Source: Mesorhizobium sp. CA14
Lineage (GTDB): Bacteria > Pseudomonadota > Alphaproteobacteria > Rhizobiales > Rhizobiaceae
Direction: 5' to 3'
Length of the DNA stretch: 64,000 bases
Assembly: GCF_020165195.1 (NCBI RefSeq)
Contig: NZ_JAIUHR010000010.1
Span: 62,001 to 126,000 of the forward strand
Of this stretch, positions 1 to 33,539 are shown one piece after another. Position 1 is the stretch's first letter, and each line of letters starts with the position of its first letter. A program made the translations under genes and the position numbers. The notes beneath the pieces are model-generated. The model made no database searches. It worked only from the letters and a program-made list of their open reading frames with translations, and was not told the DNA's origin.

Positions 1-972
1 TTCAGCGAAGGGCGCGTAATTGCTCACCGCAATCAACGTGGCGTCGAGCGGATTGTCGTCGAGCACCGCATCGATGAACGGCTTCTCGTCCATGGAAGAG
101 CCCTTGTCGAAGACCAGCGAGAAGGTCTTGAGTTTCGGGTTGCGTTTAGCCGCCGCGCGAAGACCGGCAACGCAAGCGATCGAGGAGGAATCGAGCCCGC
201 CGCTCAGCATGGCACCGACGGCCGGCGTGCCGCGCATGCGGTTCTCCACCGATTGCGCGAAGAGATGCCGGAATTCGTCGGCCGCGTCCGAGCGTCGCGG
301 CCGCTGCGACGGCTCGATCTGCCAGTAGCGCCGCAGCACCACCTGACGGTCCGACACCATCATGCTGTGCCGCGCCGGCAGGCGGAAGATCTCGGCATAG
401 GGCGTGGCCTGCGGATCGTCCGTCAAGCCGGCGAGGAAGCCGGAAATCTGGTGTTCGCTGAGCCGCCTGGCGACGCCGTCCAGCGCAAGGATCGGCCCGA
501 TCTCCGAGGCGAACGCGAAGCGCCTGCCGGTCGAATGATAGTAGAAAGGTTTGACGCCGAAATGATCGCGCGCGCAAAACAGCGTCTGGCGCTCGCCATC
601 CCATATGGCGAAGGCGAAATCGCCCTGCAGATAGGTCGGGCAGGCCTCGCCCCATTTGAGGTAGGCGCGCATGATGAGCACCGCGTCGGCCATCGACCGC
701 TCGCGAAGGCCGAGCCGCGCCAGAAGCTCGTCGCGATTGTCCAGCCGGCAATCGGCGGTGATGGCGAGCTTGCCGCCGGCCATCGTCAGCGGGCCTGGCC
801 TGTCCTCACCGGTCGTGTCGAGCCAGGCGTGGCCGAGCGCCACGCTGCCCTCGGTCCACCAGGAGCTGCCGTCGCGGGCGCGGTGGCGCATGCGCGAAAG
901 CATCTCTTGGATGTCGCCCGCCCCGGCCGGCCGGCCATTGTCGTCATACACGATTCCAGCGACGCCGCTCAT
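1..972 (-). CDS. Lasso peptide cyclase (asparagine synthase-like protein C), 3' end beyond window
   Basis: The first 324 codons of an asparagine-synthase-like protein are visible; the C-terminus lies left of base 1. The N-terminal glutaminase-like domain starts MSGVAGIV, so the catalytic Cys2 of true glutamine-dependent asparagine synthetases is Ser. A PP-loop AMLSGGLDSSS lies near residue 253 and would adenylate a carboxylate. In lasso pathways this protein activates the Asp/Glu side chain and closes the macrolactam on the new N-terminus. It starts 3 bases after the B2 stop and is last in the A-B1-B2-C order, so the family call rests on motif plus context. An exporter or isopeptidase gene, if present, would lie beyond the left edge. 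Confidence 0.88.
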   Translation of the reverse strand, partial: MSGVAGIVYDDNGRPAGAGDIQEMLSRMRHRARDGSSWWTEGSVALGHAWLDTTGEDRPGPLTMAGGKLAITADCRLDNRDELLARLGLRERSMADAVLIMRAYLKWGEACPTYLQGDFAFAIWDGERQTLFCARDHFGVKPFYYHSTGRRFAFASEIGPILALDGVARRLSEHQISGFLAGLTDDPQATPYAEIFRLPARHSMMVSDRQVVLRRYWQIEPSQRPRRSDAADEFRHLFAQSVENRMRGTPAVGAMLSGGLDSSSIACVAGLRAAAKRNPKLKTFSLVFDKGSSMDEKPFIDAVLDDNPLDATLIAVSNYAPFAE

Positions 973-975
973 CGC

Positions 976-1392
976 TCACGACTCGTGGTCGACCAGATGG
1001 GCAAATCCATTGATCGAGCCGCCAAGCACGATGTGTTTGCCGCTCATCAGCCAGGCATGCGCCTTGAGCTCGCTGCCGGTTCCTTTCTCGATGCCGATGC
1101 TGATCTTCGAGGCGTTGCCCTGACGGGCGAGCAGATATTGCCCGGCCAGCGCCTGGGCGAGGCAAGTGGCGCCCGGCACGAGCCGCGCCGCGGCTGCAAC
1201 GCCCCATGCGACACGCCGCAGGTCGGCGATGCCGGGGTCGCGCCTGGCGTCCAGCCGGGTCACCAGGCTGCGGACACGGTTGTAGGAGGACAGCGTCAGC
1301 GCCAGCCGCACCGCGCTCACCACCGTCAGGCAGTGCGCCAGAAACAGCATCTCCCGGCCGCTCAGCGAGCGGAGCCTAGACCAGTTCCTCAT
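976..1392 (-). CDS. Lasso peptide leader protease B2 (transglutaminase-like)
   Basis: About 138 residues matching the small B2 proteins that cut the leader from lasso precursors. The cysteine-protease core is visible: Cys near residue 77 in GATCLAQAL and His near residue 112 in KAHAWL. The usual third acidic residue is not obvious after the His (GKHIVLGG). ATG at 1392 is chosen as start; a TTG five codons upstream is possible. The gene overlaps the end of B1 by 17 bases and is followed 3 bases later by the cyclase, so the three are probably translationally coupled. Confidence 0.85.
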   Translation of the reverse strand: MRNWSRLRSLSGREMLFLAHCLTVVSAVRLALTLSSYNRVRSLVTRLDARRDPGIADLRRVAWGVAAAARLVPGATCLAQALAGQYLLARQGNASKISIGIEKGTGSELKAHAWLMSGKHIVLGGSINGFAHLVDHES

Positions 1393-1675
1393 GGTGGAGC
1401 CTCGCAAGTCCTGCTTCGGTCAGCCCCTTGAGCAAGCCCTCGACATCGGCCTTGCAGCGCTCGGCATCGACATTGTAGCGCGCAAGCACGGCGCTGCGGA
1501 TATCGAGGATCGATCGCGGCTCCTGGATCTGCTCCCAGATGAAGGCGCCGACGCTGTTCAGGCTGTAATAGACGTTGGATTTAAGGTGGAGCAGCGCCAG
1601 TCCTGCGCCGAATTCACATGCGACCGCCTCGCCGGTCGCGACCACGCGGTCATGGTCCGAGGGGTTCCAGTCCAT
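1376..1675 (-). CDS. PqqD-like RRE protein B1 of lasso cluster
   Basis: A 99-residue PqqD-family protein with the YYSLNSVGAFIWEQIQE segment typical of RiPP recognition elements. These small winged-helix proteins bind the precursor leader, classically its YxxP motif, and present it to the B2 protease. ATG at 1675 is preceded by a GAGG-rich stretch. It lies between the precursor and B2, the normal split-B arrangement of proteobacterial lasso clusters. No catalytic activity is expected. Confidence 0.85.
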   Translation of the reverse strand: MDWNPSDHDRVVATGEAVACEFGAGLALLHLKSNVYYSLNSVGAFIWEQIQEPRSILDIRSAVLARYNVDAERCKADVEGLLKGLTEAGLARLHHEELV

Positions 1676-1750
1676 CCTAAAACCTCGTTGCTGGCCACCG
1701 CGCCCTTGGGCCCTTCGCCGCGGATCGGTTGCCGGCGATCCTCGGCAGGA

Positions 1751-1776
1751 AGCCGGGGGACAAAAGCCCCCCGGCT
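1751..1776 (-). terminator. Stem-loop between lasso precursor and B1
   Basis: A perfect 9-bp GC-rich stem (arms 1751-1759 and 1768-1776, AGCCGGGGG against CCCCCGGCT) closes an 8-base loop. It lies 56 bases after the precursor stop and 75 bases before B1. There is no T-tract, so it may act as a partial terminator or mRNA stabiliser that keeps the precursor transcript above the enzyme transcript. A second inverted repeat, GCATCCGG/CCGGATGC at 1790-1822, lies just upstream in the transcript. Confidence 0.6.
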
Positions 1777-1831
1777 CACCTGTTGGAGAGCATCCGGAGC
1801 CCCAACTTAGACATCCGGATGCCTGTAAGCT

Positions 1832-1984
1832 TTAAGAGAAGGTCAGCTCGCCGACCGGCGTGTGCGCGGGAAAGCTCGCGTCAAGCGCCGTCGTGCCAGC
1901 ACCGCCCTGCGTGATCGTTTCAATCGAACCGTGAACCGTCAGGCTGGGGGTCTCGTACTCATGCTTTTCAACATTCTGTTCCAT
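1832..1984 (-). CDS. Lasso peptide precursor A (50 aa)
   Basis: Fifty codons starting at ATG 1984, with GGAGAG about six bases upstream. The leader has the lasso signature Tyr10-x-x-Pro13-x-Leu15-x-x-x-Gly19 and ends Thr-Gln, putting Thr at position -2 where B2 proteases need it. The core would be 24 residues: it starts Gly-Gly and has its first acidic residue, Asp, at core position 9 (GGAGTTALD), giving a nine-residue ring. The 15-residue tail runs from ASF to TFS and holds Phe, His and another Phe as possible plug residues. It heads the B1-B2-C operon. Cleavage site and ring size are inference from family rules. Confidence 0.85.
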   Translation of the reverse strand: MEQNVEKHEYETPSLTVHGSIETITQGGAGTTALDASFPAHTPVGELTFS

Positions 1985-25944: not shown

Positions 25945-27852
25945 CTAAACGCCGATGCCGCGTCCCTTCAGCGCCGCCGTGATCTCGTCGAGGATCGCCG
26001 GATCGTCGATGGTCGCCGGCATCGTCCATTCCTCCTTGTCGGCGATCTTCTGCATCGTGCCGCGCAGGATCTTGCCGGAGCGGGTCTTGGGCAGCCGCTT
26101 GATCGTCACCACGGTCTTGAAGGCGGCAACCGGGCCGATCCGCTCACGCACCAGCCCCACCACCTCGCTTTCGATCGCTGCGGTATCGCGCGACACGCCG
26201 GCATTGAGCACGACGAAGCCGAGAGGCACCTGGCCCTTCATGGCATCGGCAATGCCGATGACCGCGCATTCGGCGACATCGGGGTGGGCCGCCAGCACCT
26301 CTTCCATGGCGCCGGTCGACAGACGGTGGCCGGCGACGTTGATGATGTCGTCGGTGCGGGCCATCACGTAGAGATAGCCGTCCTCGTCCATCATGCCGGC
26401 ATCGGCCGTCTTGTAGTAGCCGGGGAACTCCTCGAGGTAAGCTTGGCGGAAGCGGGCGTCGGCGTTCCACAGCGTCGGCAGGCAGCCGGCGGGCAGCGGC
26501 AGCTTGACCACGACATTGCCGAGCGTGCCGCGCGCTACCTCATGGCCGGCATCGTCGAGGATGCGAATGTCGTAGCCCGGCATCGGCACGCCGGGCGAGC
26601 CGTATTTCACGGGCAGAAGCCCGAGGCCCGCCGGGTTAATCGTCATCGGCGAGCCGGTCTCGGTCTGCCACCAATGGTCGATCACCGGACGGTCGAGCTT
26701 CTGCTCCGCCCATTTGATGGTTTCGGGGTCGGCGCGCTCGCCGGCAAGGAACAGCGTGCGGAACTTCGACAGATCGTATTTCGGCACGAACTCGCCCTTG
26801 GGATCCTGCCCCTTGATGGCGCGGAACGCGGTCGGCGCGGTGAACAGCGCCACCACGCCATGCTGCGAGATCACCCGCCAATAGGTGCCGGCATCCGGCG
26901 TGCCGATCGGCTTGCCTTCGAACAGCACGCTTGTGCAGCCATGCAGAAGCGGCCCGTAGACGATGTAGGAATGGCCGACCACCCAGCCGACGTCGGAGGC
27001 CGCCCAGAACACTTCGCCCGGCTTGACGCCGAACTCATTGTCCATGGTCCATTTCAGCGCGACCATGTGGCCGCCATTGTCGCGCACGATGCCCTTCGGC
27101 TGGCCGGTCGTGCCAGAGGTGTATATGATGTAGAGCGGGTCGGTGGCTAAAACCGGCACGCAATCGACATTGGCGCCGGCCGCACGTTCACGCGCCACCG
27201 CGTCCGCATAGTCGAAGTCGTAATTGTCCTTCATCTCGCAGCGCAGCTGCTCGCGCTGCAGGATCAGGCACGCGTCGGGCTTGTGCTTCGACATCTCGAT
27301 CGCCTTGTCGAGCAGCGGCTTGTAGGCGACGACGCGGCCTGGCTCCAGGCCGCAGGAGGCGGTGATGATCAGCTTCGGCTTGGCGTCGTCGATGCGGGTG
27401 GCGAGCTCATGCGAGGCGAAGCCGCCGAATACCACGGAATGCACGGCGCCCAGCCTCGCTGAGGCAAGCATGGCGATGGCAGCTTCCGCCACCATCGGCA
27501 TGTAGATGATGACGCGGTCGCCCTTGCCGATGCCGCGATGCCTCAGCACCGAGGCGAGGGCGAGGACCTCGCGCTTCAATTCGGCATAGGTGAATTTTCG
27601 GATCGCGCCGGTGATCGCGCTGTCGTGGATCAGCGCCAGCTGGTCGGCGCGGCCGCCCGCGACATGGCGGTCGATTGCGTTGTAGCAGGTGTTGCAGGTT
27701 GCACCGGTGAACCAGCGGCCATAGACGCCTTCTGCAGGATCGAAGACCTTGTCGGCCGGCCTATACCAGTCGATCGCCTTGGCCGCCTCGGCCCAGAACC
27801 CTATGGGGTCGCGTTTCCAGCCCTCATAGACTTCATGGTAACGTGAGGCCAT
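25945..27852 (-). CDS. prpE: Propionyl-CoA synthetase / acyl-CoA ligase
   Basis: A 635-residue ANL-family enzyme. The P-loop IYTSGTTGQPKG lies near residue 240, WWQTETGSPM near 400, and the acyl-adenylate motif YKTADAGMMDEDGYLYVMARTDD in pieces near 480; the acetylated Lys region is KTRSGKILR close to the C-terminus. It converts propionate (or acetate) with ATP and CoA to the acyl-CoA. Propionyl- rather than acetyl-CoA specificity follows from the opening YHEVYEGWKRDPIGFWAEAA and overall length; moderate certainty. Confidence 0.88.
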   Translation of the reverse strand: MASRYHEVYEGWKRDPIGFWAEAAKAIDWYRPADKVFDPAEGVYGRWFTGATCNTCYNAIDRHVAGGRADQLALIHDSAITGAIRKFTYAELKREVLALASVLRHRGIGKGDRVIIYMPMVAEAAIAMLASARLGAVHSVVFGGFASHELATRIDDAKPKLIITASCGLEPGRVVAYKPLLDKAIEMSKHKPDACLILQREQLRCEMKDNYDFDYADAVARERAAGANVDCVPVLATDPLYIIYTSGTTGQPKGIVRDNGGHMVALKWTMDNEFGVKPGEVFWAASDVGWVVGHSYIVYGPLLHGCTSVLFEGKPIGTPDAGTYWRVISQHGVVALFTAPTAFRAIKGQDPKGEFVPKYDLSKFRTLFLAGERADPETIKWAEQKLDRPVIDHWWQTETGSPMTINPAGLGLLPVKYGSPGVPMPGYDIRILDDAGHEVARGTLGNVVVKLPLPAGCLPTLWNADARFRQAYLEEFPGYYKTADAGMMDEDGYLYVMARTDDIINVAGHRLSTGAMEEVLAAHPDVAECAVIGIADAMKGQVPLGFVVLNAGVSRDTAAIESEVVGLVRERIGPVAAFKTVVTIKRLPKTRSGKILRGTMQKIADKEEWTMPATIDDPAILDEITAALKGRGIGV

Positions 27853-28300: not shown

Positions 28301-28330
28301 CTTGACAGTGGGCGCGACTACCCATCATGC
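28301..28330 (+). promoter_or_regulatory. Putative promoter of first RiPP precursor
   Basis: CTTGACAG at 28301-28308 is a good alphaproteobacterial -35, followed after 17 bases by a weak -10 (TCATGC). The precursor ATG is 32 bases beyond. The second precursor has an equally placed TTGACAGTG at 32379. Confidence 0.4.
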
Positions 28331-28361: not shown

Positions 28362-28448
28362 ATGAAGAAAACTTACGAAAAACCGGTGCTGGTCAAGCGC
28401 GAGAAGCTGTCGCATGTCGTGGCGGTCGCAAGCGGTCCGATCGGCTGA
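28362..28448 (+). CDS. RiPP precursor-like peptide 1 (28 aa)
   Basis: A 28-codon ORF with a GGGGGG Shine-Dalgarno five bases before ATG. It reads MKKTYEKPVLVK at the start and AVASGPIG at the end. The Tyr-x-x-Pro-x-Leu element is the RRE-binding motif of lasso leaders, and the sequence K-K-x-Y-x-x-P-V-L-x-K-x-x-K-L-S-x-V-V-A-V-A-S is shared with the peptide at 32429. The part after the leader is at most about 8 residues and has no Asp or Glu, so an ordinary lasso ring cannot form. It precedes PqqD-like, B2-like and HPr-kinase-like genes. Confidence 0.7.
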   Translation: MKKTYEKPVLVKREKLSHVVAVASGPIG

Positions 28449-28561
28449 CGCTTCGGCCATTCGCCGCAAGACGGCCGACGCAACTGCGCAACTTCGGCGC
28501 GAGATGATGGACAGCGCAAAGTTGGCGCGCTACTTGCTCCCGGGCGAAGGGAAGCGGGCGC

Positions 28562-28849
28562 ATGGCTGAGATTGGTTCTGAAACGGTGCTGCGGATGGCG
28601 GACGACGCCTCCGTGCAGCATGTCGGCGATGGCGCCGTCGTGCTTTTGGCGCGCAGCGGCCAGCTTTACACCTGCAACGACACGACCGAGGCTTTTCTCG
28701 ACAAGGTGAACGGCGCGCGCAACCTCAACCAGATCGTCGACCTGCTGTCGGACGAATTCGAGGTCGACAAGGCGACGCTCGACCAGGACATGACCGAATT
28801 GGCCGCCGAGCTGGTGGCCGAAGGCATCCTCGCCGACCCGGGCGCGTGA
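28562..28849 (+). CDS. PqqD-like RRE protein of second RiPP locus
   Basis: A 95-residue PqqD-family protein; the central ARSGQLYTCNDTTEAFLDKV and ILSDEFEVDKATLDQDM-like (LLSDEFEVD) helices are typical. It should bind the Tyr-x-x-Pro leader motif of the two precursor-like peptides. GAAGGGAAGC lies upstream. Its stop overlaps the next start (TGATG), tying it to the B2-like protein. Compared with B1 at 1376 it is clearly related but not a copy. Confidence 0.82.
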   Translation: MAEIGSETVLRMADDASVQHVGDGAVVLLARSGQLYTCNDTTEAFLDKVNGARNLNQIVDLLSDEFEVDKATLDQDMTELAAELVAEGILADPGA

Positions 28850-29280
28850 TGGCCGACGGGCTGGTCCTGCGCGTCCTGTTTCGCGCCCATTTGTGGCTCA
28901 GCGCCCGGCTGATGCCGGTGCTGGTGGGCCGGCGCGATTTTGAAAGCGTGTTGAAACTGGCGCCGCTGCAGTCGCCTGCGCCCTATCGCGACTTGCCCTG
29001 GGCCTACATCGTCCATCGCGTCAAACGAACGGTACGGCGCCCCTGGCTGATGCGCGACCGCAGATGCCTTCGCGAAGGTCTGCTCGGGTTTCGTTTTCTG
29101 CGGATGGCCGGCCTCGACCCGGAGCTGCGTTTCGGCGTCGATGCCAAGTCGATGCACGAGCCTCGCCTGTCGGCGCATTGCTGGGTCTGCCTCGATGGCA
29201 AGCCGGTGGTCAGCGACAGCCAGCCCGGCATGGTGGAGATCTACCGCCACCCGGCCAGGATGAAGGCGCCAGCCGCTTGA
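28849..29280 (+). CDS. Lasso B2-like (transglutaminase-fold) protease
   Basis: A 143-residue member of the lasso leader-peptidase family. Cys73 in RRCLREGLL, His110 in SAHCWVCL and Asp near 123 in VVSD make a full Cys-His-Asp set, better preserved than in the first cluster. It would cut the precursor leader in complex with the PqqD-like protein. ATG 28849 overlaps the previous stop; a GTG one codon earlier is possible. Its last codons overlap the TTG start of the kinase-like gene. Confidence 0.82.
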   Translation: MADGLVLRVLFRAHLWLSARLMPVLVGRRDFESVLKLAPLQSPAPYRDLPWAYIVHRVKRTVRRPWLMRDRRCLREGLLGFRFLRMAGLDPELRFGVDAKSMHEPRLSAHCWVCLDGKPVVSDSQPGMVEIYRHPARMKAPAA

Positions 29281-30257
29281 GCGACCAGACTTTCCGCTAC
29301 GACCTCAACGGCCAGGTCATAGGCATCACCGCCGCGCGTGCCGATCTGTGGCCGAGCCTTGACCTGATGCTCGGCACCCTGCGCATGAACGAGCCTGTCC
29401 CGGCCGGTTTTCGCGTCGACATTGTCGAAACGCTCGAGTTGCCGGAGAATCCCGAAGGAAAGCTGGCTTTCGACGGCGACGTCCCGCCGGACGGCCATTG
29501 CCGCATGATCGACGCCGGAAGCGTTTTCCATCTCGTCTTTCCGGGCCAGCAGACGCTGTCGATCCACGACGGCGAGGGCCGGGCCGAAATCCGTCTTCGT
29601 CCGGACAGCAAGATCAAGTGGACGCTGCTGATGATGGTGCTGGACGCGGCGCTCGACGCGGACGGCCAGCATATGCTGCACACCGCTGGTCTCACCTTGC
29701 CGGGAAAGGACGGCCTGGTTCTCATTCATGCGCCAAGCGGCACGGGCAAGTCGACGACGTCGCTCGCGCTTGCGTCACGGGGCTTCGGCCTCTGCTCGGA
29801 TGACGTGATGATCCTCAATGCAAAGGCGCAGGGCATTTCGGCTTGGGGCATGCCGCGCAAGGTGAAGATCCACCGCAACACCGCCGCAATGTTGCCCTTC
29901 GTCACGCCTTGCCTGGGCGAAAACTGGGATGCCGAGGGCGAGCAATCCGTTTCGCTGGACCGCCTCGGCGAAATCATTCGTGTCGAGGATGTGCGCGCCA
30001 GGCCCGTCGCCGCGCTCCTGCACCTTGCACGCTCGGCAGACGCCGAGACCCGGCTGCTGCCGATGGCCAGGACCGACGCTATGGTGGCTTTGGCCACCGA
30101 CAATGTGCGGACCGGCATGACCGGCCTGCTGTCGCTGCAGAAAAGGCGCATGGCGACGATCGCGGCCCTGGTGAAGGCAGTGCCGACCTTCACGCTGGAA
30201 GTCGGGGCAAGGCCGGTCGAGGCGGCGGCGCTGATCCGCGCCGCGGTGCCGAGTTGA
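29277..30257 (+). CDS. HPr kinase-like ATP-binding protein
   Basis: About 326 residues. A P-loop HAPSGTGKSTTSLAL near residue 150 and LCSDDVMIL after it match the C-terminal catalytic domain of HPr kinase/phosphorylase. Relatives occur in RiPP clusters; in the paeninodin pathway one phosphorylates the precursor C-terminal Ser. Here the peptides have Ser near the end of the conserved part (AVAS), so phosphorylation is possible but unshown. TTG 29277 is chosen as start since it overlaps the B2 stop (TTGA) and the upstream frame runs through B2. Confidence 0.75.
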   Translation: MSDQTFRYDLNGQVIGITAARADLWPSLDLMLGTLRMNEPVPAGFRVDIVETLELPENPEGKLAFDGDVPPDGHCRMIDAGSVFHLVFPGQQTLSIHDGEGRAEIRLRPDSKIKWTLLMMVLDAALDADGQHMLHTAGLTLPGKDGLVLIHAPSGTGKSTTSLALASRGFGLCSDDVMILNAKAQGISAWGMPRKVKIHRNTAAMLPFVTPCLGENWDAEGEQSVSLDRLGEIIRVEDVRARPVAALLHLARSADAETRLLPMARTDAMVALATDNVRTGMTGLLSLQKRRMATIAALVKAVPTFTLEVGARPVEAAALIRAAVPS

Positions 30258-30264
30258 CGCGCGC

Positions 30265-31244
30265 TCAGTCCTTCGCGCCGAAACGCCGGATGTCGAAGGA
30301 TCGCTGGTTCCACCGGCCATGGCGGGGTTTCGACTGCCATCGCAACAACAGCCGGGACAGTTTGTTATAGGCCAGATGGACGACGCGCGCGTCGGCGCAG
30401 TCGAACTCCACCAGTCCCCATCGGGATTTCGCCGCTTCGCCGCTGGGTGGTCCCAGGCGGCGGATCGGCTGGGCCAGACGGGCCGGCGTTCCATTGATCA
30501 GCACACTGACCGAAACACTCGACCCGACGATCGGCACAGCCGCGCGACATGGTCGCTTGACGATTGCATGCCGACGATCAACGGACCCGGCTCGACGCGC
30601 GCCCAGACGTAAGCCCCATCCGGCTGGGGCATTCCGGCAAGCCTGCCCCGGCAAAACTCGGGCGCAATATCCGTCGCAAGCGCAGCCATCGCGTCGGCCA
30701 GGGCCTTGTTCACCGTTGCGGCCGAACGCCAATCCCCTGCTGCAAAGCCAACCTGCGCCAGGATGTCGCCCGCATCGAAGCCGGACGTCATCTTGTGCAA
30801 TGTCACGCCGCCATGCGCTTCATGCATCCGGTCGATAACTAGTCGGTGAATCGGATGCGGGCCGCGATAGTGCGGCAGAAGCGCGGGATGCAGGTTGAGG
30901 CCGCCCTTCGGAAACAGCTCAAGTACAGTTTGCGGGATCAGCCTACCGTATCCGAAACAGATCAAAAGATCGGCGCCGATGCTGAGCTCCCGCCCGAGCG
31001 CATCCCAATCATGGGGCGGGCTGAATTCGATTAGCGGGGGCATGGCGTGTCTGGGATGAGATATCAACGCAAACCGTCGCCGCAGGCGGCGGCGCAGGGT
31101 ACTGAAGCTGAAGCGCTTGCCGGCACGTGGGCCTGGCACGACCACGGCAGCGATGCGGTGGCCGTCATTTGCCCAGCGTGCAAGCATGGGCGCGGTGACG
31201 GACGAAACCTCGGTGATGAATACGGCCGAGAGCGGTTTCTCCAT
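30265..31244 (-). pseudogene. Formyltransferase-like protein with C-terminal frameshift
   Basis: From ATG 31244 the frame encodes a methionyl-tRNA-formyltransferase-like N-terminal domain: LLICFGYGRLIP, then GLNLHPALLPHYRGPHPIHR with the catalytic Asn-x-His region, and HKMTSGFDAGDIL. That frame stops at 30498. The next frame continues a sensible C-terminus (VSVSVLINGTPARL ... WNQRSFDIRRFG) to 30265, seven bases from the convergent kinase-like gene. An indel lies between about 30515 and 30560. It may be real decay, a sequencing error, or a working truncated enzyme. Substrate could be an amino sugar or the RiPP; unknown. Confidence 0.65.
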
Positions 31245-31251
31245 GCCGAGC

Positions 31252-32277
31252 TCAGGCTGGATATGGTCGCGACCGTGCCAGCCTCTGGACCCAGCGGAAG
31301 GCATCGCGGCTGAGGCGCGAGCGCAGCTTCTCGCGAGAATTGACCCGAAGCAGCATGTTGCCGGTGATCAACCATTTGGCCAGTCGGATCGAGAGGTCCG
31401 GCTTGATGCGGTCGGCGAGCTCGATCGCGCGCGGCGCGCCGAACAGGCGTCCGGTGACGTTGAGGACCGTGGCCAGCTCGAGCTCGATGCCGGTCATGCG
31501 GGCGGCATCGAGCAGCCGCGCTTCCGCTTGAGGCGATTTCAGCGCCCGCACGCCTTGCAGCACGTCGACGCACAGCTGCAGGCGGTGGAACTTGTGGCCG
31601 CCGGCGGCATGAACGATGGCGATGGTGAGCAGCGCGGCCGGCGTGTCGGTTTCGCTGCCGTCGATTGCCTGCAACTCGCGGAAGCCAAGCGACAGGCGTC
31701 TGCGCATGCCGGTGTCGTGCACCAGATTGCCATGCAATTCGACCAGCAGGCTGGAGTTCTCTTTCTCCAGCCATTTGAATTCCAGCAGTTCATGCGACTC
31801 GGCCTCATCGCTGCCGAGCTCGAAGCCGCATTCGCCGATGGTCCTGTTGGCCGCCTCGATGCTGGCGGGGTCGACGAGGATGTCGATGTCGGTGAAGGGA
31901 CGGTCCGCAACCTGGCTATAGAGCTTGCGCGCGAACACCGGCCCCTTGACGATCCGGGCCGGCACGCCCTTTGCCGCCAGCGCTTTCATGATGCGGTCGC
32001 CGTGATATTGCAGCAGCATCGATTGGCCGGTCGCCATCGTCGCCTCGTCGCGCAACTCCGATAGCCTCCGCTGCAGGGCTGCGTCCTGCGGCAGTCGAGC
32101 GTCACCGATCTCCCGGAGTTTGCGCAGCATGATCGGCAGCACGCCGTGAAACTCCGCATTGGCGAGCAGCGCCAGCAGGGTTGCGGCCACAACATCCCTG
32201 CTAACAGCCGCCGGTGCATCGGGGTCGGCGAAGGTCAGCAGCAGTTTTTCATCGGCGGGGGCAAGAGATGGCAGCAT
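31252..32277 (-). CDS. Nucleotidyltransferase-family protein (NTP_transf_5-like)
   Basis: A 341-residue relative of the protein at 2488. ARIVKGPVFARKLYSQ and FTDIDILVDP hold the Lys-Gly and D-x-D elements of the fold. Such proteins are frequent in lasso and related RiPP loci, including those with HPr-kinase-like partners, but their reaction is not established. It lies 7 bases ahead of the formyltransferase gene in one unit and is divergent from the second precursor. A TTG one codon upstream of ATG 32277 is an alternative start. Confidence 0.75.
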   Translation of the reverse strand: MLPSLAPADEKLLLTFADPDAPAAVSRDVVAATLLALLANAEFHGVLPIMLRKLREIGDARLPQDAALQRRLSELRDEATMATGQSMLLQYHGDRIMKALAAKGVPARIVKGPVFARKLYSQVADRPFTDIDILVDPASIEAANRTIGECGFELGSDEAESHELLEFKWLEKENSSLLVELHGNLVHDTGMRRRLSLGFRELQAIDGSETDTPAALLTIAIVHAAGGHKFHRLQLCVDVLQGVRALKSPQAEARLLDAARMTGIELELATVLNVTGRLFGAPRAIELADRIKPDLSIRLAKWLITGNMLLRVNSREKLRSRLSRDAFRWVQRLARSRPYPA

Positions 32278-32378
32278 CAAATCTGGTCGGGATTGGTTAT
32301 GGAAGGCAGATATGGCGGATATGGTTGCAGAAAAGCATCAGGGACGCCAGCAACGAGAGGGCGAAGCTCCCGCATGAA

Positions 32379-32408
32379 TTGACAGTGTGAATAGCTTTGC
32401 CGCATTCT
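32379..32408 (+). promoter_or_regulatory. Putative promoter of second RiPP precursor
   Basis: TTGACA at 32379-32384, 17-base spacer, weak -10 (GCATTC), 21 bases before the ATG. It shares TTGACAGTG with the promoter-like sequence at 28301, consistent with joint control. Confidence 0.38.
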
Positions 32409-32428
32409 TACAACCTGGAGTCGGAGGC

Positions 32429-32524
32429 ATGAAAATGACCAAGAAGCAATATCAAGCGCCAGTTCTGCGCAAGGCAGGTAAGCTGTCCACTGTAGTAGCC
32501 GTTGCCTCGAAAACACCGGCCTAA
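32429..32524 (+). CDS. RiPP precursor-like peptide 2 (31 aa)
   Basis: A 31-codon ORF with GGAGTCGGAGG just upstream of ATG. After MKMT it follows the same pattern as the peptide at 28362: K-K-x-Y-x-x-P-V-L-x-K-x-x-K-L-S-x-V-V-A-V-A-S, then ends KTPA. Again no acidic residue follows the leader. It is divergent from the nucleotidyltransferase and 28 bases from the convergent dhaK end. Conservation of leader pattern at both ends of the locus is the main evidence that these are real genes. Confidence 0.68.
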   Translation: MKMTKKQYQAPVLRKAGKLSTVVAVASKTPA

Positions 32525-32552: not shown

Positions 32553-33539
32553 CTAAATGCCCCATCGCAACGCCGCCGTGTGTACCGGCGCGTCCCAAAG
32601 TGCCGACGTTTCGTCGTCCAGCGTGGTCAGCGTGATCGAGCATCCCGCCATGTCGAGCGAGGTCACATAGGACCCGACCAGCGAGCGGACCACCGTCACG
32701 CCCTGCCTCTCGAACATTCTGCGGGCGCTGTTGTACATCAGATAGAGCTCCATCGACGGTGTGCCACCGAAGCCGTTGACGAACAGCAGCGCCGGCCCTT
32801 TGACCCGGTCGCCGAGGTCGCCGGCAATCGTCGCGCAGACCTCCCCGGCGATGGCGTCGGCGCTCTTCAGCGCATCGCGCCGCCGGCCGGGCTCGCCATG
32901 GATGCCGACGCCGAATTCCATCTCGCCATCGCCGATCTCGAAGGTCGGCTTGCCGGCGGCGGGGACCGTGCCGCTGGTCAGCGCCACGCCCATGGAGCGC
33001 GTCGCGGCATTGATGCGGTCGCCCAGCGCCTTGAGCGCGGGCAGGGCCATGCCTTGCTCCGCCGCCGCGCCGACGATCTTTTCAACCACCAGCGTGCCGG
33101 CCACCCCGCGCCGTCCGGTCGTGTAGGACGAGTTCTCGACCGCGACGTCGTCATTGGTCACCACCTGCAGCACGCCGTCCGCCATCTCGGCCGCCATGTC
33201 GAAATTCATCACATCGCCTTCATAGTTCTTGACAATGAACAGGCAGCCGGCGCCGGTGTCGACAGCCTGGACGGCCGCCAGCATCTGGTCGGGCGTCGGC
33301 GAGGTGAAGACCTGGCCGGGGCAGGCGGCGTCCAGCATGCCGTGGCCGACAAAGCCGCCATGCAGCGGCTCGTGGCCGGAGCCGCCGCCCGAGATCAGCG
33401 CCACCTTGCCGGGTTTCAACGCCCTGCGGCGGATGAATTTGCGGTCGTCGCCAAGCACGAGGATGTCGGCGTGAGCCGCCGCAAAGCCATCGAGGCTTTC
33501 GGCCAGCACCGTGTCCACTGAATTGATGAATTTCTTCAT
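32553..33539 (-). CDS. dhaK: Dihydroxyacetone kinase subunit DhaK (PTS type)
   Basis: A 328-residue DhaK. ISGGGSGHEPLHGGFVG forms the substrate site and GVGIHGEPG carries the His that holds dihydroxyacetone covalently. Together with DhaL-ADP, rephosphorylated by DhaM, it makes dihydroxyacetone phosphate. It is the last gene of a long leftward series from the glycerol transporter. A palindromic repeat separates it from the HTH-like gene upstream. Confidence 0.93.
   Translation of the reverse strand: MKKFINSVDTVLAESLDGFAAAHADILVLGDDRKFIRRRALKPGKVALISGGGSGHEPLHGGFVGHGMLDAACPGQVFTSPTPDQMLAAVQAVDTGAGCLFIVKNYEGDVMNFDMAAEMADGVLQVVTNDDVAVENSSYTTGRRGVAGTLVVEKIVGAAAEQGMALPALKALGDRINAATRSMGVALTSGTVPAAGKPTFEIGDGEMEFGVGIHGEPGRRRDALKSADAIAGEVCATIAGDLGDRVKGPALLFVNGFGGTPSMELYLMYNSARRMFERQGVTVVRSLVGSYVTSLDMAGCSITLTTLDDETSALWDAPVHTAALRWGI

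Follow-up and report, generated by a model that had tools for sequence, protein, structure and literature searches.

What can a set of lasso-type leader-processing enzymes make where the enzyme that would close the ring is absent? The question is raised by a locus in a 6.07 Mb Mesorhizobium genome, within a stretch of 64,000 nucleotides (nt) that was analyzed as a whole (contig C2:62001-126000; hereafter, the window). Two tiny open reading frames (ORFs) on the forward strand, A1 and A2, mark the ends of the locus, as a first-pass annotation of the sequence had noted, and family scans assign the genes between them as it had described: a discrete recognition element for ribosomally synthesized and post-translationally modified peptides (RiPPs), abbreviated RRE, a B2 leader peptidase, an HPrK-like serine kinase, a formyltransferase, and an NTP_transf_5 nucleotidyltransferase (NT). 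Also in agreement with that annotation, no asparagine-synthase gene is found among the genes between A1 and A2. We propose, with a probability of about 0.7, that the locus belongs to a lasso-derived RiPP pathway without ring closure, in which one enzyme set serves many precursors.

Scattered precursors and a single enzyme set

The first-pass annotation took the two window ORFs for the system's pair of precursors, a view that their number and distribution do not support. A profile built from 34 precursors (profile A1) and searched in 144 genomes of the genus matched 99 of them, with precursors in 95 of 95 kinase-positive genomes as compared with 4 of 49 kinase-negative ones (Fisher test, 4e-33, relatedness of the genomes being ignored). 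Twenty-five of the 95 genomes had contributed sequences to the profile and 70 had not; two further kinase-positive genomes lay outside the draw of 144. The number of precursors per kinase-positive genome ranges from 3 to 29, with a median of 9, and adds up to 873 matches at E ≤ 0.1. The genome studied here has eight: two on contig C2, which are those of the window, four on C67, and one each on C34 and C13. Seven of them match at E ≤ 6e-5 and the eighth at 0.023, and all eight match at E ≤ 5e-8 with a broader profile of which seven are themselves members. One of the C67 copies (L135, approximately 1501-1584) begins with CTG, and its relative in L118 begins with ATG. On the single-contig chromosome of genome G105, precursors lie megabases apart, for example, at 0.23, 3.90, 4.96 and 5.02 Mb. 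No common gene neighborhood was apparent among 20 neighbors of scattered precursors that were scanned, four of which had no Pfam match. Proteins with SdrD_B domains adjoin two of these precursors, which belong to different genomes (L183:7060-8313 and L187:9295-10530), one of the proteins scoring under the family cut-off.

Against the curated NCBIfam models, A1 and A2 score under the cut-offs, and a scan of the 37 members of a further precursor set (A4) yielded weak matches only (lasso_cyano, best E 1e-4; lasso_leader_L3, best E 0.007).

The enzymes, in contrast to the scattered precursors, occupy one site. The kinase is present in 97 of 146 genus genomes, our own counted, each time with more than 430 bits, and the records most similar to it are nearly all from Mesorhizobium. 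Sixty of the 97 kinase-positive loci, picked across the identity range, were read at ±6 kb. The RRE, B2, kinase and NT genes occur together in all 60, as does the left flank gene; a DhaK-like match is present in 59 (one of them weak, 38%) and the formyltransferase in 10. None of the 60 has a match to the cyclase of the lasso cluster that neighbors the locus in the window. In ten kinase-negative genomes that were examined, the left flank gene is present in all ten, with no system gene within 1.5 kb of it, and the DhaK-like gene adjoins it in five. Because the flank gene is thus found without the system, the enzyme site is a presence/absence site on the chromosome. A search of a plasmid collection with B2 gave no match at E 1e-20.

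The RRE, B2 and kinase genes overlap by a few bases and therefore probably form a single operon. The kinase gene starts with TTG and overlaps the B2 stop codon, and B2 could start at GTG 28846 or at ATG 28849 (residues are numbered here from the former). The RRE resembles TfuB1 (6jx3, E 3e-5). Across 68 loci, the putative catalytic residues are kept with at most one exception each: Cys74 and His111 of B2; His135, Lys158 in the P-loop, Asp175 and Asp176 of the kinase; and Asp131-x-Asp133 of the NT. The kinase thus has the complete His-Lys-Asp-Asp set, which is the catalytic set reported for serine kinases acting on lasso precursors (PMC9266682); our residues were paired with the published ones by type and order, not by structural alignment. 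A predicted model of the NT has a pol-beta-like nucleotidyltransferase fold and contains the DxD pair that would serve as the metal pair in pol-beta-type nucleotidyltransferases.

Precursor sequences and signs of selection

Unique genus precursors (96, from 99 matches of which three were dropped) are 26–40 residues long, and their leaders follow the consensus MKKxYxKPxLxKRxxLSxVTA. The residue preceding the core is Ala in all 96, with a filter that permitted Ala or Gly, and position -2 is occupied by Thr in 43 and by Val in 42. The predicted cut site is placed from this invariant residue together with the rule for lasso leaders. Cores defined in this way are 5–19 residues long and no longer than 12 in 91 of the 96; both window copies have cores of 7 residues, in keeping with the short cores and lasso-type leader handling that the first-pass annotation had read from the locus. 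All 96 cores have a Ser at +2 to +6, compared with a mean of 52.8 and a maximum of 67 in 2000 residue shuffles. Given this near-fixed distance behind the leader and the leader-linked serine kinase gene in the genome, the core Ser is the obvious substrate, and we infer that it is the residue the kinase acts on.

The cores are ill-suited to a lasso fold. In a crude test that calls for Gly1, Asp or Glu at positions 7–9, and at least 13 residues, none of the 96 passes, and only 10 have Asp or Glu at 7–9. That a lasso knot is unlikely, as first suggested from the two window ORFs and the missing asparagine-synthase-like gene, is borne out by these cores and by the loci without a cyclase.

Several features indicate that the tiny ORFs are genes. 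In the reading frame assigned, none of the 96 leaders contains a stop and the mean pairwise identity is 0.595, a value to which the motif filter itself contributes; the other two frames have stops in 46 and 44 leaders, at identities of 0.31 and 0.34. Within the codon for the Ala that precedes the core, pairs of sequences differ at positions 1, 2 and 3 in 2%, 2% and 65% of cases, respectively. The string TTGAC lies at -90 to -25 in 73 of the 96 genes (mean 6.8 and maximum 14 in 200 shuffles), at a median distance of 57.5 nt from the start, and a string resembling a ribosome site stands ahead of 91 (mean 37 and maximum 47 in 100 shuffles).

One scattered precursor, whose core is QIVASGVVLGE, is matched in 70 of the 144 genomes (E ≤ 1e-6). 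Among 30 of its orthologues, codon differences are predominantly synonymous both in the leader (176 versus 47 nonsynonymous) and in the core (111 versus 24), and Ser5 is kept in 30 of 30. These codon differences indicate purifying selection on the precursors. The first-pass annotation had made its reading depend on whether the ORFs are conserved with frame-preserving changes, which they are, and on whether homologous loci all carry a cyclase and acidic cores, whereas the loci read have no lasso cyclase. Other precursors diverge in the core: L143, L144 and L147 have near-identical upstream DNA, yet their cores are QVVPSQESKAE, QEIPSEPLPG and QLAPSQESKAE.

For A2, ATG 32435 is favored as the start because it is better spaced from a GGAGG ribosome site and because relatives begin with MTKK. 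The window features are collected in Table 1.

Table 1. Features of the peptide locus and its flanks (window positions).
Feature	Coordinates	Strand	Evidence or remark
Left flank gene, presumably acyl/propionyl-CoA synthetase-like	25945-27852	-	constant site boundary
TTGACA, likely -35 element of A1	28302-28307	+	60 nt upstream of the A1 ATG
Precursor A1, 28 residues, MKKTYEKPVLVKREKLSHVVAVASGPIG	28362-28448	+	ORF read directly
A1 core VASGPIG, predicted	28425-28445		follows leader MKKTYEKPVLVKREKLSHVVA
RRE (PqqD-like, discrete B1)	28562-28849	+	PF05402 42.2 bits, cut-off 23.4
B2 leader peptidase, transglutaminase fold	28846-29280	+	NF033537 67.9 bits, cut-off 33
HPrK-like Ser kinase	29277-30257	+	PF07475 21.9 bits, E 1.4e-4, under cut-off 33.3
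Formyltransferase (Fmt/ArnA-like)	30498-31244	-	PF00551 75.5 bits; TIGR00460 84 bits, under cut-off
NTP_transf_5 nucleotidyltransferase (NT)	31252-32280	-	PF14907 94.7 bits
TTGACA, likely -35 element of A2	32379-32384	+	
Precursor A2, 29 residues, MTKKQYQAPVLRKAGKLSTVVAVASKTPA	32435-32524	+	ATG 32429 is an alternative start
A2 core VASKTPA, predicted	32501-32521		follows leader MTKKQYQAPVLRKAGKLSTVVA
Right flank gene, presumably DhaK-like	32553-33539	-	boundary in most loci

Proposed pathway and its alternatives

In the pathway that we propose, tiny genes, each in most cases behind its own promoter-like element, would give precursors of 26–40 residues. The RRE would bind the K-K-x-Y-x-x-P-x-L leader and hand the precursor to the enzymes; the HPrK-like kinase would phosphorylate a Ser (in other genera, sometimes a Thr) at core position 2–6; and the NTP_transf_5 enzyme may then add a nucleotide or a nucleotide-derived group onto the phosphate. 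Cleavage by B2 after the invariant Ala would release a linear peptide, mostly of 5–12 residues. In some species, an accessory acyl group may be added by the formyltransferase, as here, or by a cassette of an AMP-ligase, a GNAT acyltransferase and a carrier protein in other genera. Of the modifications suggested by the first-pass annotation, phosphoryl and nucleotidyl transfer thus stand as the best guess, and formyl transfer, with its gene in 10 of 60 loci, would be accessory at most. One specific form of this scheme, which we advance tentatively, is a distributed RiPP library: approximately ten scattered micro-genes per genome would yield short linear peptides bearing a nucleotide or NTP-derived cap attached through phosphoserine, with the cores that are constant across species acting as dedicated signals and others diversifying.

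Several observations weigh against the proposed pathway. The kinase scores under both the Pfam and the NCBIfam cut-offs (PF07475; TIGR04352, E 1e-7), and no exporter was found at the window locus, where seven genes were family-scanned. Both the motif and the profile searches that supplied the precursor sets require the leader, and profile A1 includes Ser-rich core columns. By motif scan, just 25 of the 60 loci have a precursor next to the enzymes, so that the pairing of precursors with enzymes rests largely on co-occurrence; the figure is an undercount, as the profile finds a precursor in L041 that the motif scan missed. Four kinase-negative genomes (G019, G020, G119 and G134) retain one or two precursors. 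Cores from other genera have Ser at +2 to +6 in 26 of 37 cases and Ser or Thr in 35 of 37, and the kinase of the published pathway for linear polyphosphorylated peptides (LPP) of Bacillota rejects an S3T substitution (PMC13381572). Two of these 37 outgroup cores also satisfy the crude lasso test. Finally, the homologue PsmN is reported to add a hexose, not a nucleotide (PMC9266682).

This last point leads to an explanation that we regard as unlikely but that carries the most weight among the rivals, namely, that the kinase and the NT make a glycosyl-phospho-peptide, with a hexose-phosphate on Ser, and that such peptides decorate or regulate a surface polysaccharide. Its reported precedent is pseudomycoidin, in which PsmK is the kinase and PsmN attaches one or two hexoses to the phosphoserine (PMC9266682). 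The setting is also suggestive: ten ORFs of the window that lie between the two peptide loci include polysaccharide genes, and LPP and paeninodin loci of Bacillota are likewise described in capsule loci (PMC13381572). On the other side, the predicted NT model has the pol-beta fold with DxD, although the fold leaves the reaction unsettled, the Bacillota NTP transferase yielded no visible product (PMC13381572), and the scattered precursors adjoin unrelated genes.

It is also conceivable, at very long odds, that the precursors are true lasso precursors whose ring is closed in trans. A canonical lasso cluster lies at the left edge of the window (1-1984, - strand) and continues in L007 (10190-15985, - strand), with a precursor MEQNVEKHEYETPSLTVHGSIETITQGGAGTTALDASFPAHTPVGELTFS (Gly1-Asp9, C-terminal Ser), B1, B2, a cyclase, an HPrK-like kinase and an ABC exporter. 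Its cyclase scores 782 bits with NF033535 (cut-off 525), the cluster lies approximately 26 kb away, and an orthologue of near full length (E = 0) is present in 88 of the 95 kinase-positive genomes and in pieces in G051 and G078. However, the orthologue was not found in kinase-positive G016, G033, G050 and G127, nor in the 79%-complete G123, and 11 of 49 kinase-negative genomes retain it. G016, G033, G050 and G127 are 99–100% complete and carry the system with 6–16 precursors. Eleven of the 14 large Asn-synthase-type proteins in these four genomes were classified; each exceeds the cut-off of the asparagine-synthase model (267 bits) and falls short of that of the lasso-cyclase model (525 bits). 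The other three (L233, L234 and L240) are similar in length to the classified ones. Since four genomes keep precursors with no recognized lasso cyclase, the neighboring cyclase seems unneeded in trans, and the first-pass proposal that it could act on these peptides is rejected as a requirement. The composition of the cores, with 0 of 96 passing the crude test and Asp or Glu at 7–9 in ten, points in the same direction.

We attach similarly little credence to the view that the enzymes are the leftover of a lasso cluster minus its cyclase and the precursors decaying copies. In its favor, 35 of the 60 loci have no motif-scan precursor beside the enzymes, a search for a degenerate A1 upstream of the RRE in 25 of these 35 found only doubtful remnants in L067 and L068, and one copy in our own genome starts with CTG. 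Decay is nevertheless hard to reconcile with the retention of the catalytic residues across 68 loci (one exception at most), the synonymous bias in leader and core, and 3–29 copies in each of 95 genomes, most of those in the examined set having promoter-like elements. Among the kinase-negative genomes, G019 and G119 retain a relative of the QIVASGVVLGE precursor, and such leftovers may be remnants or may serve another use.

Relation to known systems and occurrence outside the genus

No earlier report of the system was found in one open-access literature collection, searched by titles and abstract openings. As with lasso pathways, the system has a discrete RRE (B1), a YxxPxL leader and a B2 leader peptidase; since a macrolactam cyclase at the locus and cores able to form a threaded ring are absent, it does not count as a lasso pathway. 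Among published systems, the LPP pathway (Popov et al. 2026) comes closest; it is stated to be restricted to Bacillota and phosphorylates core Ser3 (PMC13381572). Both systems comprise an RRE, an HPrK-like kinase, an uncharacterized NTP transferase and a YxxP leader, have no cyclase, and often share a genome with a lasso cluster of the phosphorylated type and polysaccharide genes; the Ser lies near the core start in both (core 3 in LPP, core 2–6 here). They differ in the peptidase, which in LPP is of the SpI type, whereas here it is B2, with no SpI among the seven locus genes, to which the search for it was confined. LPP clusters include an MsbA-type exporter, whereas here the ABC exporter belongs to the separate lasso cluster. 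LPP precursors have 35–200 residues and number 1–3 per cluster, in contrast to the 26–40 residues and chromosome-wide scatter in these Alphaproteobacteria, and of the LPP leader YxxPxVLxHQxIxFETxxS only YxxP is common to both.

Paeninodin and pseudomycoidin (PMC9266682) share with our system the HPrK-like serine kinase (His-Lys-Asp-Asp) and B1/B2 leader handling, and pseudomycoidin also the NT; they have a cyclase and a phosphorylated C-terminal Ser, whereas here there is neither a cyclase nor a ring acceptor and the Ser is at +2 to +6. The lasso cluster of our genome carries a kinase and a C-terminal Ser, so that the genome appears to pair a likely phosphorylated lasso peptide with a linear system, as some Bacillota do. 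In its genomic design, one modifying system with many isolated or tandem precursors that combine a conserved leader with a variable core, the system resembles the prochlorosins of picocyanobacteria, although these rely on lanthionine chemistry, ProcM and Nif11 leaders (PMC10783134), with enzymes unrelated to those described here.

If the proposed pathway is correct, cyclase-free, kinase-dependent RiPPs would extend from Bacillota to Alphaproteobacteria with a different leader peptidase, which suggests repeated loss of the knot from lasso machinery. A second chemistry would then be known for the prochlorosin-like design of one enzyme set and many scattered precursors, and hundreds of micro-genes in a nitrogen-fixing genus would be assigned a biochemical role that can be tested. 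The lasso cluster that shares the genome would provide a natural experiment on how a pair of YxxP pathways keep their substrates apart.

At the family level, precursor matches were found in 18 of 394 genomes, 12 of which are outside the genus and represent eight other genera. Twelve stretches from 11 such genomes were read: seven have the RRE, B2, kinase and NT beside precursors, which are single or in tandem, up to 10 in 2 kb; the remaining five have no enzyme within the stretch, and in two of these (L257 and L258) the motif likewise gave no convincing precursor. Among the relatives that carry a name are Ancylobacter, Chelativorans, Oricola, Devosia and an uncultured Roseovarius. Among 79 named loci, the RRE and B2 are each present in 79 and the NT in 78, and the single cyclase-like match was classified as an asparagine synthase. 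A class-level precursor search of 385 genomes returned only our own genome and two marginal matches; as relatives in Devosia and Ancylobacter exist, the class-level sample or the profile misses some.

Several of these loci carry additional genes. In L248 (10758-12980), an AMP-ligase, a GNAT acyltransferase and a small carrier protein, all identified by Pfam, adjoin the NT; L252 (12859-15090) and L256 (4811-7072) have the same layout, with GNAT confirmed in both, the carrier in L252, and the ligase seen by weak tblastn matches only. An AMP-ligase is also present in L253. Together with the formyltransferase of the window, this cassette hints at variable acyl tailoring.

In L332 (4358-6969), from a Hyphomicrobiales metagenome-assembled genome, the RRE, B2, kinase and formyltransferase match, with no NT match and no motif precursor. 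L255 (8162-10333) has four precursors with longer acidic cores (of the SGVKVPDIFDEEP type) next to a patatin-like gene that resembles CBASS phospholipases, under the family cut-off; the enzyme set is absent from this 19.5 kb stretch. In the window itself, the polysaccharide genes between the two peptide loci (3734-24584) include those for glycosyltransferases, a UDP-sugar dehydrogenase, GH16, and flippase-type and Wzz/tyrosine-kinase-type proteins.

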